Shown piece by piece: positions 1,191-5,375 of a stretch of 5,383 nt of DNA. Below the pieces are notes generated by a model. The model ran no database searches. It had not been told where the DNA came from and worked only from the letters and a program-made list of their open reading frames with translations. Each line of letters opens with the position of its first letter. The first letter of the stretch is position 1. Source of the DNA: Candidatus Desantisiibacteriota bacterium (GTDB taxonomy: Bacteria > JACRDZ01); the NCBI GenBank assembly GCA_016209155.1, contig JACQWU010000045.1:1-5383 (forward strand), read 5' to 3'. Made by a program: the position numbers and the translations under genes.

Positions 1191-2029
1191 AACCACAAAA
1201 GGGAACTCTTTATTTAGTAAGTACACCCATTGGGAATCTTGAAGACATCTCATACCGTGCTTTACGCATATTAAAAGAAGTTGATATTATTGCCGCTGAA
1301 GATACCCGTCATACAAGAATACTTCTTTCACATTACGGGATAAAAACTCCGACAACAAGTTTCTATTCTTACAATCAAAAAACTAAAATCCATTATTTAT
1401 TAAACCTGCTTGATTCAGGTAAAAATATTGCGCTTGTAACTGATTCAGGAACGCCCGGGATATCAGATCCGGGACATGAAATAATCCATCAGTCCATATT
1501 GCAGAATATACCAATTACTTCTATCCCGGGGCCAACTGCGCTAATTACTGCGGTTATTAGTTCCGGATTCCATACTAATAGATTTATATTTGAAGGTTTT
1601 TTATCTTCAAGACAAAATGCCCGCAGGCAGGAGCTTGTAAAGATAAAAGATGATACAAGGACATTAATTTTTTATGAATCACCTCATCGTTTAAGATCCA
1701 TGCTTTTGGACATGCAGGACATACTTGGCGACAGACAAATAGTTTTAGCACGTGAATTAACAAAAAAATTTGAAGAAATACTCCGCGGAAAAATTTCGGA
1801 ACTTTTAGCTACTCTGCCGGAACATATTAAAGGAGAATTTACAATAGTTATGGAAGGCCAGTTAAAACATCAATCAATATCTCTTTCATCCGATCAGATC
1901 CGCATGGAAATTGAAAAAATAGTAAAAAGTGAAAAAATGGATAAGAAAAACGCGATTAAAAAACTCTCTTCTCTTACCGGAATTCCGAGAAAAGAAATAT
2001 ATAATGCATGTATTTCGGATAAGACTTAA
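1187..2029 (+). CDS. rsmI: 16S rRNA (cytidine1402-2'-O)-methyltransferase RsmI
   Basis: RsmI uses S-adenosylmethionine to methylate the 2'-hydroxyl of C1402 in the decoding centre of 16S rRNA, tuning start-codon choice and fidelity. At 280 residues it has the usual full length. Tetrapyrrole-methylase-fold motifs appear in order: STPIGNLED (12-20), AEDTRHTR (37-44), VTDSGTPGISDPG (84-96), IPGPTA (113-118), FEGF (135-138), YESPHRL (163-169), ARELTKKFEE (188-197) and GEFTIVMEG (216-224). The C-terminal helical domain ends KKNAIKKLSSLTGIPRKEIY (253-272). The ATG overlaps the cytochrome stop (ATGA, 1187-1190) and I see no Shine-Dalgarno sequence before it. Translation therefore probably depends on ribosomes finishing the upstream gene. 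Its stop overlaps that of the convergent regulator gene. Confidence 0.96.
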   Translation: MKPQKGTLYLVSTPIGNLEDISYRALRILKEVDIIAAEDTRHTRILLSHYGIKTPTTSFYSYNQKTKIHYLLNLLDSGKNIALVTDSGTPGISDPGHEIIHQSILQNIPITSIPGPTALITAVISSGFHTNRFIFEGFLSSRQNARRQELVKIKDDTRTLIFYESPHRLRSMLLDMQDILGDRQIVLARELTKKFEEILRGKISELLATLPEHIKGEFTIVMEGQLKHQSISLSSDQIRMEIEKIVKSEKMDKKNAIKKLSSLTGIPRKEIYNACISDKT

Positions 2030-3006
2030 CTTTTCTCTTCTCTCATTTTTATAAATTCCTCGAGCAGATCTTTATCCCACCAGCCTCTTTCTGATTCCTC
2101 ACGCATTATTCTAATAGCTCTTTCTATGGTCATACTCGGACGATAGGGTCTGTCTGTGGTAAGAGCATCAAATACATCTGCAATAGCCATAATACGGGTA
2201 TAAACAGAAATCTGATCGCCTTTTAGTCCATCCGGATAACCGCTTCCATCTAATTTTTCATGATGATTACGGATAATCGGTATAATCTGGCCCATAGTCT
2301 TTTTTAGGGGTAAACACATTTCATATCCAAGTACCGGATGAGTTTTAATTATTTTATATTCTTCCTCTGTCAAACGTCCGGGCTTACTTAAGATTGCATC
2401 AGGAATTCCTATTTTCCCTACATCATGCAGGGCTCCTCCTTTTTTTATAATATCAAGCTCTTCCTGCTGAAGATAAATTTTTTTACCTAAATTATATGCA
2501 TATGCAGATACACGGTCTGTATGCCCCTGCGTGTAAAAATCCTTTTTTTCAATAAATCGCGCGATACTGAATATAACGTTCTCAACACTTTCGAGATGAT
2601 CATTCGACCTTTTTACTTTAATCCATCGTATCACAGTTGCCAGAAGCTCTAATTTATTTATTGGTTTTAGCATGTATTCTTCAGCACCCGCGTCAATCCC
2701 CATTATTTTATCCTCCAACTGGTCAAGAGCAGTTATTAAAATAACCGGAATTAACCGCGTTTTATCATTTCCCTTTATCTGACGGCAGACTTCCAATCCG
2801 TCTATTTTTGGCAGGCGAACATCCAATAAAATCAAATCAGGAAGATGATTAGAAATTTTTTCAAGAGCTTCCTCTCCATCACGTGCCATATAAAGCTCAT
2901 ATCCTCTGTTAAATAAATATGCTTCTAATAAGTTCAAATTCATCTCTTCATCATCAACAATTAAAATTTTTGGTTTATCGACATGCATTTCATGAGTAAA
3001 ATCCAT
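2026..3006 (-). CDS. Response regulator with HD-GYP c-di-GMP phosphodiesterase output
   Basis: A cytoplasmic two-component regulator of the RpfG type, 326 residues. The receiver domain spans about 12-130 and keeps every key residue: acidic pocket D18-D19, phosphoacceptor D62 in LLDVRLP, T92 and K114 (KP). A short helical linker leads to an HD-GYP domain (about 140-320). That domain shows GHTDR (161-165), the metal pair H194-D195 in HDVGKIGIPD, H223, the signature HHEKLDGSGYP (248-258), and D277 in MAIADVFDALT. All expected metal and signature residues are present, so it is probably active, degrading c-di-GMP when phosphorylated. The ATG at 3006 has AGGAGT 7 nt upstream; a second in-frame Met at residue 7 is less likely. 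It lies 53 bp after the histidine kinase on the same strand, its likely phosphodonor. It has no DNA-binding domain. Confidence 0.95.
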   Translation of the reverse strand: MDFTHEMHVDKPKILIVDDEEMNLNLLEAYLFNRGYELYMARDGEEALEKISNHLPDLILLDVRLPKIDGLEVCRQIKGNDKTRLIPVILITALDQLEDKIMGIDAGAEEYMLKPINKLELLATVIRWIKVKRSNDHLESVENVIFSIARFIEKKDFYTQGHTDRVSAYAYNLGKKIYLQQEELDIIKKGGALHDVGKIGIPDAILSKPGRLTEEEYKIIKTHPVLGYEMCLPLKKTMGQIIPIIRNHHEKLDGSGYPDGLKGDQISVYTRIMAIADVFDALTTDRPYRPSMTIERAIRIMREESERGWWDKDLLEEFIKMREEKS

Positions 3007-3013
3007 ATTTATT

Positions 3014-3019
3014 ACTCCT
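3014..3019 (-). promoter_or_regulatory. Ribosome binding site of the HD-GYP regulator
   Basis: AGGAGT on the minus strand lies 7 nt before ATG 3006-3004. It is the strongest ribosome site in the window, so the regulator can be translated independently of the kinase on a shared message. Confidence 0.75.
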
Positions 3020-3031
3020 ATGATAATTTAA

Positions 3032-3049
3032 GATTTGAGATTTCAAATC
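3032..3049. repeat. 7-bp inverted repeat between kinase and regulator genes
   Basis: GATTTGA (3032-3038) and TCAAATC (3043-3049) are perfect arms around GATT. The stem is AT-rich and lacks a following T run, so it is not a convincing terminator. It could be a weak intercistronic hairpin or an operator. Confidence 0.4.
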
Positions 3050-3059
3050 ATATCATCTC

Positions 3060-4832
3060 CTATGTAAAGATTCTGATACATTCCGCTAAAATGCTTTCCG
3101 GTTTATTTTTTCCTAATGTTATTACTTTTATTTCCAATTCCGGTTTAATTGAAGACGAAATTTTTTTCAGACAGTTATCCTTATTTTCTTCAATTCTCTT
3201 TTTAATGATCTTTACTCCCTCATCGCCGGTATCCAGAATAACCAAAAAAATTCCTTTACTTTTATAAAAGAATTTACAATCCTTTTTTTCTCTGAATAAT
3301 AAATTTAAATAATTTTCCATGCAATTTAGTGATTGTTCTTTTTCTGTTTCTCCAAATTTATCGAGATTATTTATTTTGCAAAAGAAAAAAGATACTGTTT
3401 CAATTTTCAAAACATGAATTGTCTGCAAAATTAAAAAATAAATATCAGAATATTCCGGCGGTACGACAGGTATAAAAAATAAAAAAATACTGCCTTTCCC
3501 CGGGATACTTTCAACCTTTATTTCTCCTCCATGCGCAACTGCAAACCTTTTAGCTATAGCAAGCCCGAGTCCCGAGCCGGGTTTAGTTGCATCAAGCTGA
3601 ACAAATTCTTCAAAAATATTGAAAAAATTTTCCTCTGCTATACCAATACCGTTATCCTGTATTTCTATAGAAATATATTTTAATATTAAATTATCGTATT
3701 TCTTTTCATACTCACGAGCTCTTATTTCAATTTTGCCTTCGATCGGAGTAAATTTTATGGCATTTGACAATAGGTTATCAATTATTTGTCTTATCTTAAT
3801 AGGATCGGCGTAAATATTTTTTGATTTTAGATCCAAATATTTATTTAAATTAATTTTTTTACCTATAATTAATGGAGTGAAATCATTTATTATCTGAAGT
3901 ATGGTATTTTCAATTGAAAATTTCTTAATATTCAGGGTATCCCTTTTATTTTCAATTTTTGTAATATCCAAAATACTTATAATCATTTTCAATAAACGCT
4001 TTCCGCTTATTTCCATATTTGTCAAATATTCTTTCTGTTTTTCATTTAGCGGACCAATAGTTTCATCCATTAAAATTTCAGAAAACCCTAAAATAGCATT
4101 AAGAGGTGTTTTTAATTCATGAGTAATACTTGCTATAAATTTGTTTTTCACTTTACCTGCTTCTTCCAGTTGTTTAGTCTTAACAATCAATTCTTCTTTG
4201 GTTTTATTTGCTTCTTTAAGTAAAATATTTATTTCGCCGGTATACTCCTGATTTAATATCTTTATAATATTAAAACTTGCCCACGCAATTACACCGGCGC
4301 ATACCATACGTAAAATTTCGGCAGGAATAATAAATATATCGGGAAACATATCTTTATTTATTAAATTTGCAGGAAAAAAATCACCTTTATCAACCATAAG
4401 CCCTGCTGCTATTCCATAAACTCCAAAACCGATAGTCCATTCTGTTAAATAATTTGCCATTTTAAAATTATCAATTTTAACTTTATTAAGCTTATAATAT
4501 TCAGGTATGCATACTGTAAGTAAAATACATGAAGGGAAACAAAGCAGGTACCGGCTAAAAGTTACCGCTATATCATAATCATAATTAAAAAAATATATGA
4601 CTATAAACAAAATTGAAACTGTTGTAAAAAATCTGTGTATATTAAATTTGATTTTACTATCTGTAATCAATTCATAAAATTTCAAAGCAAAAATGGAAAG
4701 AAAAATAAAGGATATAATAACTAATAAAGAATTAATATTTTTTAAAAATAAGCGTTCCTCGCGAAAATAAATAAATATGGTTATCCACTCGTGCGCTCCA
4801 TGTGTTAATCCAAATGCTCCTAAAAACCACAA
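3060..4832 (-). CDS. Membrane sensor histidine kinase with degenerate GGDEF-like C-terminus; 5' end probably lost
   Basis: It would phosphorylate the HD-GYP regulator downstream. Numbered from the TTG at 4832 (590 residues): membrane segments near 2-22, 35-55, 67-83, 89-111, 132-147 and 163-192; a charged coiled-coil-like linker (195-228); HisKA with H238 in ITHELKTPL (E..T phosphatase motif present); N box N353/N357; G1 box DNGIG (393-397); G2 box GSGLGL (419-424). Residues 460-590 lie outside the usual kinase core and resemble a GGDEF fold with KSKGIF in place of the catalytic loop. The start is doubtful: no ribosome site precedes the TTG. The frame stays open 14 further codons to a TAA (4877-4875), encoding FLLANILWFLGAFG, which reads as the lead-in to the HGAHEW membrane motif. 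In relatives as I know them, another membrane helix precedes this motif. The missing part coincides with the antitoxin junction. Confidence 0.88.
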   Translation of the reverse strand: MWFLGAFGLTHGAHEWITIFIYFREERLFLKNINSLLVIISFIFLSIFALKFYELITDSKIKFNIHRFFTTVSILFIVIYFFNYDYDIAVTFSRYLLCFPSCILLTVCIPEYYKLNKVKIDNFKMANYLTEWTIGFGVYGIAAGLMVDKGDFFPANLINKDMFPDIFIIPAEILRMVCAGVIAWASFNIIKILNQEYTGEINILLKEANKTKEELIVKTKQLEEAGKVKNKFIASITHELKTPLNAILGFSEILMDETIGPLNEKQKEYLTNMEISGKRLLKMIISILDITKIENKRDTLNIKKFSIENTILQIINDFTPLIIGKKINLNKYLDLKSKNIYADPIKIRQIIDNLLSNAIKFTPIEGKIEIRAREYEKKYDNLILKYISIEIQDNGIGIAEENFFNIFEEFVQLDATKPGSGLGLAIAKRFAVAHGGEIKVESIPGKGSIFLFFIPVVPPEYSDIYFLILQTIHVLKIETVSFFFCKINNLDKFGETEKEQSLNCMENYLNLLFREKKDCKFFYKSKGIFLVILDTGDEGVKIIKKRIEENKDNCLKKISSSIKPELEIKVITLGKNKPESILAECIRIFT

Positions 4833-4858
4833 AATATTAGCCAGAAGGAATTGGCTCT

Positions 4859-4864
4859 TATAAT
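4859..4864 (+). promoter_or_regulatory. Possible -10 element before the antitoxin remnant
   Basis: TATAAT sits 5 nt before the TTG at 4870. The best -35 candidate, TTAGCC at 4837-4842, is poor. A second TATAAT lies on the opposite strand at 4879-4874, facing the kinase, also without a good -35. Both are cheap matches in AT-rich DNA, but they are the only promoter-like elements at this junction. Confidence 0.25.
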
Positions 4865-4869
4865 AAATT

Positions 4870-5079
4870 TTGCATTATAGAAAAATATCCGCTGCCGCGG
4901 AAATTGAGCATCGCCCGATCTCTAATTTTATCAGTACCCATGTTTTGCGGGACATAGAAGAATCTTACTATGTTGATCCCGTTGAAATGGCTCAGATTAA
5001 ATCGGACAAAAGACTGCTATGGAAGCTCCATGCCGGACATTTAGACGTTAAGAAAAGAAAAGGTAAGTTAATTGGATAA
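4870..5079 (+). CDS. Type II antitoxin lacking its N-terminal DNA-binding strand (truncated remnant)
   Basis: The 69-codon frame begins at a TTG with no ribosome site; a stop (TAA 4864-4866) lies two codons upstream. What remains looks like the main part of a ribbon-helix-helix antitoxin. YRKISAAAEIEHRPISNFI (3-21) matches the two helices, where RP/S then S-F-I is the usual turn and second helix. A longer helix (22-35) follows, then a charged tail (36-69, YYVD...EMAQIKSDK...AGHLDVKKRKG) of the toxin-wrapping kind. The N-terminal strand of about 15-20 residues that contacts operator DNA is missing. The next in-frame ATG (4987) would remove both helices. It overlaps the toxin start by 8 bp, the normal antitoxin-toxin arrangement. 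It may still neutralise the toxin but should not repress the operon; it may equally be a dead fragment. Confidence 0.6.
   Translation: MHYRKISAAAEIEHRPISNFISTHVLRDIEESYYVDPVEMAQIKSDKRLLWKLHAGHLDVKKRKGKLIG
5058..5063 (+). promoter_or_regulatory. Ribosome binding site of the toxin gene
   Basis: AAAAGG lies inside the antitoxin's KKRKGK codons, 8 nt before the TTG at 5072. This supports TTG as the toxin start and coupled translation. Confidence 0.55.
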
Positions 5080-5350
5080 TTTTAAGATTTTTGAAACAAG
5101 TCAATTTGTAAATGGCCTTAAGCAAGATTTTAGCGGTCAGCAAGAGCGGATGAAAAGAAAGCTCGAATCCTACGTTTACCCTCAGTTAAAGCAAAATCCA
5201 TATTTTGGCAAGCATATAAAAAAACTCGTTAATTATACTCCTGAAACCTGGCGTTATAGAATAGGAGATTATAGGTTTTTTTACGCGGTTGATACATCTA
5301 AAAAGATAGTTTTTATGTTGACTGTTGACCATCGCGGCAGCGCTTATTGA
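5072..5350 (+). CDS. RelE/ParE-superfamily toxin of a type II toxin-antitoxin pair
   Basis: A 92-residue protein of the usual toxin length with TTG as start. Members of this superfamily either cut mRNA on the ribosome (RelE-like) or block gyrase (ParE-like). The mRNA-cutting type seems likelier here because of its basic, aromatic C-terminal half. Features: an N-terminal helix pair (11-40) ending YVYPQLKQNPYFGK; the core strand WRYRIGDYRFFY (60-71) with R61, R63 and R68; and a closing strand IVFMLTVDHRGSAY (79-92) with H87, R88 and Y92 as candidate catalytic residues. The ending is usually DHRKDAY in relatives I know; GS replaces KD here. The frame is intact although its partner antitoxin is truncated. 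The two genes overlap by 8 bp. This region looks richer in G and C than the kinase gene beside it, consistent with transfer. Confidence 0.85.
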   Translation: MDNFKIFETSQFVNGLKQDFSGQQERMKRKLESYVYPQLKQNPYFGKHIKKLVNYTPETWRYRIGDYRFFYAVDTSKKIVFMLTVDHRGSAY

Positions 5351-5353
5351 ACT

Positions 5354-5375
5354 GAATTTTGCTATTGCAAAATTC
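5354..5375. repeat. Perfect 9-bp inverted repeat just past the toxin stop
   Basis: GAATTTTGC (5354-5362) and GCAAAATTC (5367-5375) are perfect arms around TATT, starting 3 nt after the toxin TGA. No T run follows on either strand, so it is a poor intrinsic terminator. Its AATTTTGC core recurs at 4866-4873, at the left edge of the toxin-antitoxin piece. It may be the boundary of a mobile or captured segment. Confidence 0.6.

Follow-up and report, generated by a model that had tools for sequence, protein, structure and literature searches.

Toxins of the ParE/RelE superfamily (PF05016) are found with ribbon-helix-helix antitoxins of the DUF6290 or TacA1-like kind in MAGs of Omnitrophota, Elusimicrobia and Atribacteria. 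Toxin-antitoxin pairs are often transferred laterally. The window analysed here, a 5383-bp stretch of DNA that is the entire contig C14, carries such a pair with the same gene order, the same overlap and a full-length toxin; however, its antitoxin lacks the first 13 residues, the start codon and the ribosome site. Diverging from this pair is a sensor histidine kinase, which is followed by a response regulator with an HD-GYP-like output (positions 2026–4859 together). The nearest described arrangement is at locus L003 on contig C60 of genome G001, where a sensor kinase and a regulator with an HD-GYP-like domain occur in the same order, with 37% identity. The kinase of G001 ends in a GGDEF domain and has a different gene upstream, whereas the kinase of the window is without its first membrane helix.

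The meeting point of the two truncated genes may also be compared with the false deletions that consensus or assembly errors introduce into draft genomes. It resembles them in that out-of-frame losses occur in conserved genes of the same assembly, including the one rpoB that was found. It differs in lying between divergent genes, so that two starts are lost rather than one frame shifted, and in containing 16 nt of unexplained filler. The contig probably carries a false deletion at this junction, with the kinase and the toxin-antitoxin pair being intact divergent neighbours in the organism. The features of the locus are listed in Table 1.

Table 1 Features at and around the junction.
Feature	Position	Strand	Basis
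Sensor histidine kinase, 5′-truncated	3060–4859	−	PF00512 and PF02518; comparison with full-length relatives
16-nt junction ATAATAAATTTTGCAT without homology to either gene	4860–4875	.	Kinase homology ends at 4857–4859; antitoxin homology starts at 4876
Ribbon-helix-helix type antitoxin, 5′-truncated by 13 codons, start and ribosome site	4876–5079	+	Alignment with relatives
ParE/RelE-superfamily toxin, complete, TTG start, overlaps antitoxin end	5072–5350	+	PF05016; full-length alignment
Perfect palindrome GAATTTTGCTATTGCAAAATTC	5354–5375	.	After the toxin, 8 nt short of the contig end

Truncation of the kinase and the antitoxin

The kinase comprises a multi-helix membrane sensor domain, a HisKA domain and a HATPase_c domain. 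Its homology to relatives is recognisable on the minus strand up to the Lys-Ser encoded by 4854–4859. The frame itself stays open to a TAA at 4877–4875 and reads CKIYYKSQFLLANILWFLGAFGLTHGAHEW; an example of the corresponding sequence in full-length relatives from the same phylum is MDLIFYYFQNNLDVVFLIYGLAFIVMGNVILVQPREKSAFEIANVLWLLALFGITHG. In comparison with such relatives 33–38 N-terminal residues are missing. They correspond to the first membrane helix with the motif YGxxFxxMG..ILxQPR, in which QPR is invariant among the relatives. Of the parts expected in a full-length sensor histidine kinase, HisKA and HATPase_c are present, but the membrane sensor domain is incomplete, as the first helix and the QPR motif are absent. 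The sole start-like codon near the 5′ end is a TTG at 4832, which has no ribosome site, and there is no ATG. In 290 genomes searched with a 64-position profile of the N-terminal sensor region, this contig aligns only from position 34, whereas the six full-length proteins closest to it align from position 1 or 2; among remoter matches, two start at position 12 and one at position 8. The missing kinase N-terminus was also sought with a profile in the remainder of the assembly, with no significant match (best E 0.2).

Homology of the antitoxin begins on the plus strand at the Tyr encoded from 4876. Its frame reads ILHYRKISAAAEIEHRPISNFI, preceded by a TAA stop at 4864–4866, and the first start-like codon is a TTG at 4870, again without a ribosome site. 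In 23 relatives aligned in register, 12–13 extra residues, mostly MSKVITLRLSEEE, stand ahead of the matching Tyr, and an AGGAGG-like ribosome site is present in most of them. The 13 residues that are absent here, MSKVITLRLSEEE, form the DNA-binding strand, and the remainder of the protein is kept. The blastn alignments that reach the 5′ end of the gene start at 4874–4885. The truncated antitoxin has no Pfam match; its full-length relatives match the DUF6290 or TacA1-like ribbon-helix-helix families. Directly upstream of the toxin, the complete ribbon-helix-helix DNA-binding part of a ParE/RelE pair is therefore lacking. The toxin is a full-length member of its superfamily, matching PF05016 with an E value of 1.5e-7 and 32.4 bits against a cut-off of 23 bits.

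These results bear out an earlier note on this DNA, made from the sequence by eye, in which the kinase was said to lose its 5′ end in a frame open to the TAA, the antitoxin to begin past its DNA-binding strand, and both to be without ATG and ribosome site. The comparison with complete homologues that it called for supplies the numbers of missing residues, 33–38 in the kinase and 13 in the antitoxin. Full-length homologues starting at these same points would have contradicted it; the kinase relatives and the 23 antitoxin relatives extend further. The note also had the two coding regions running directly into each other. Both starts are indeed lost at one point, but the genes are not in direct contact, as the 16 nt between them match neither.

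Junction bases and the palindrome

That the 16 nt match neither gene argues against a join via a shared k-mer. A nine-base part of the junction, AATTTTGCA (4866–4874), recurs inverted in the palindrome behind the toxin. As much agreement with the palindrome tail is seen in about 0.9% of random 19-mers drawn from the window, and the recurrence, having been spotted after the fact, carries little weight. No exact match to the junction was found in viral contigs, and a possible resemblance to a dif-type recombination site is confined to one arm. Between the toxin stop and the contig end only 33 nt are left, and nothing can be read past 5383 because the window is the whole contig. The contig-end sequence has no second exact copy in the genome and is not shared with another of its contigs. 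The inverted repeats were also considered as transposon ends and rejected, as the palindrome has no second exact copy in the genome.

Other broken genes of the assembly

The source assembly is a draft of 352 contigs that is 78.8% complete. Its mean open frame length is 288 residues, compared with 366 and 334 in two related assemblies. A single rpoB was detected in it (L092, G000:C276, 2768–2781), and this gene is split into two frames between GKVTPKGE and RAIFGEKA, with an out-of-frame loss of ~ 32 nt, or about 10 residues. Two further breaks lie on a single contig (L110, G000:C3), at about 13830 and about 17440. They affect mgtA, encoding a magnesium transporter, which has lost 47 residues (~ 142 nt, out of frame), and radC, from which ~ 50 residues are absent (~ 100 nt by frame positions, out of frame). 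The rpoB and mgtA breaks contain no obvious filler. On the contig analysed here, a cytochrome c-like gene (619–1190) is split over two frames and is ~ 16 nt short: the distance from CxxCH to a conserved Trp is 26 nt, compared with 42 nt (14 codons) in relatives from genomes G001 and G003.

When 393 kb of this assembly were compared with stretches of the two related assemblies, deletion-type breaks were counted in 3 of 59 compared genes here and in 0 of 181 there (Fisher p = 0.014), a count that depends on which split pairs were judged by eye to be deletions. It leaves out a fourth pair from this assembly (L166) and three control pairs, which have little missing sequence or are not interpretable. 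A cell with only a broken rpoB cannot live. The rpoB loss is thus not credible as a real deletion, and a second, unassembled copy of the gene in a 79% complete genome is unlikely.

Origin of the junction

Because the two genes diverge, a single loss over their facing starts removes both 5′ ends. The earlier note had called the junction an illegitimate join, arising by insertion of a partial toxin-antitoxin fragment, by deletion or by chimeric assembly. The join is indeed abnormal, and deletion is the simplest of these mechanisms, since one loss spanning the divergent starts explains both truncations. The coding loss amounts to at least ~ 145 bp, made up of about 105–115 nt of the kinase and 39 nt of the antitoxin. 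In the proposed original neighbourhood the kinase would run leftwards and the antitoxin-toxin pair rightwards, each with an intact start. With an estimated intergenic share added, the sequence absent from the contig would come to ~ 150–400 bp and would cover both 5′ ends and both promoters. An origin in the library or the assembly is favoured because the same assembly contains the out-of-frame deletions in rpoB, mgtA, radC and, on the present contig, the cytochrome c gene, and these may share one cause with the junction. Some observations count against a false deletion. The junction contains 16 nt of filler, in contrast to the rpoB and mgtA breaks, the inferred loss is larger than any of the other four, and the toxin is closer to proteins from Omnitrophota than to those of the host phylum, which a chimera would explain as well.

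A real deletion of recent date, carried by the organism or by one strain of its population, is less probable but deserves some weight. The divergent intergenic region would have been lost together with both 5′ ends, and the 16 bases would be end-joining filler. The presence of filler in place of a k-mer-long shared overlap is unlike a de Bruijn misassembly, and the inverted recurrence of nine of its bases near the contig end is what templated filler would produce. However, the comparable losses of the same assembly include that in rpoB, and the remaining kinase, antitoxin and toxin frames show no decay. As these parts are intact, the event must be either very recent or artificial. If real, the deletion would amount to ordinary gene decay, with a silent kinase-regulator operon and a promoterless toxin-antitoxin remnant as its products. 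We regard it as unlikely that end joining with templated filler has left a complete toxin beside an antitoxin whose toxin-binding half survives but whose DNA-binding strand and promoter are gone.

It is rather improbable that the junction is a chimera, in which a kinase end and a toxin-antitoxin end from two loci or organisms were fused during library preparation or assembly. The closest relatives of the toxin-antitoxin pair are in Omnitrophota and other phyla, with up to 79% identity, as against 47% in the host phylum, and the seemingly foreign part lies at the very end of the contig. The Omnitrophota affinity of the toxin, judged from sequence identity, would fit either lateral transfer or a chimera. 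It says little on the latter because such pairs so often move between genomes. Moreover, the join shows no overlap with homology to both of its sides, and the two parts are not clearly separated by base composition.

Insertion into the kinase gene of a small mobile element carrying the pair between short inverted repeats, akin to the insertion proposed earlier, is highly improbable. Short inverted matches do flank the pair (4866–4877 with 5363–5374), but the insert would have to begin within the antitoxin gene, and the sequence shows no duplicated target site. The ends have no second exact copy in the genome, and the palindrome is not seen after the toxin in those relatives whose downstream DNA was examined. 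Neither the toxin nor the pair was found in phage, plasmid and viral contig collections, the search of the assembly did not find the kinase N-terminus elsewhere, and only 33 nt are left behind the toxin.

As several conserved genes of this draft carry short out-of-frame losses, its truncated and split genes should not be taken as biology without recourse to the raw reads.

Relatives of the toxin-antitoxin pair

Among the relatives of the pair (loci L045–L077), 9 of 33 lie within 600 bp of a contig end, where 3.5 were expected (KS p = 0.09); a bias of this family towards contig ends is only suggestive. Two complete pairs of broadly the same kind, L029 (G000:C223) and L027 (G001:C29), are nearly identical although they come from two different families of the phylum, a degree of sequence similarity that suggests recent transfer.
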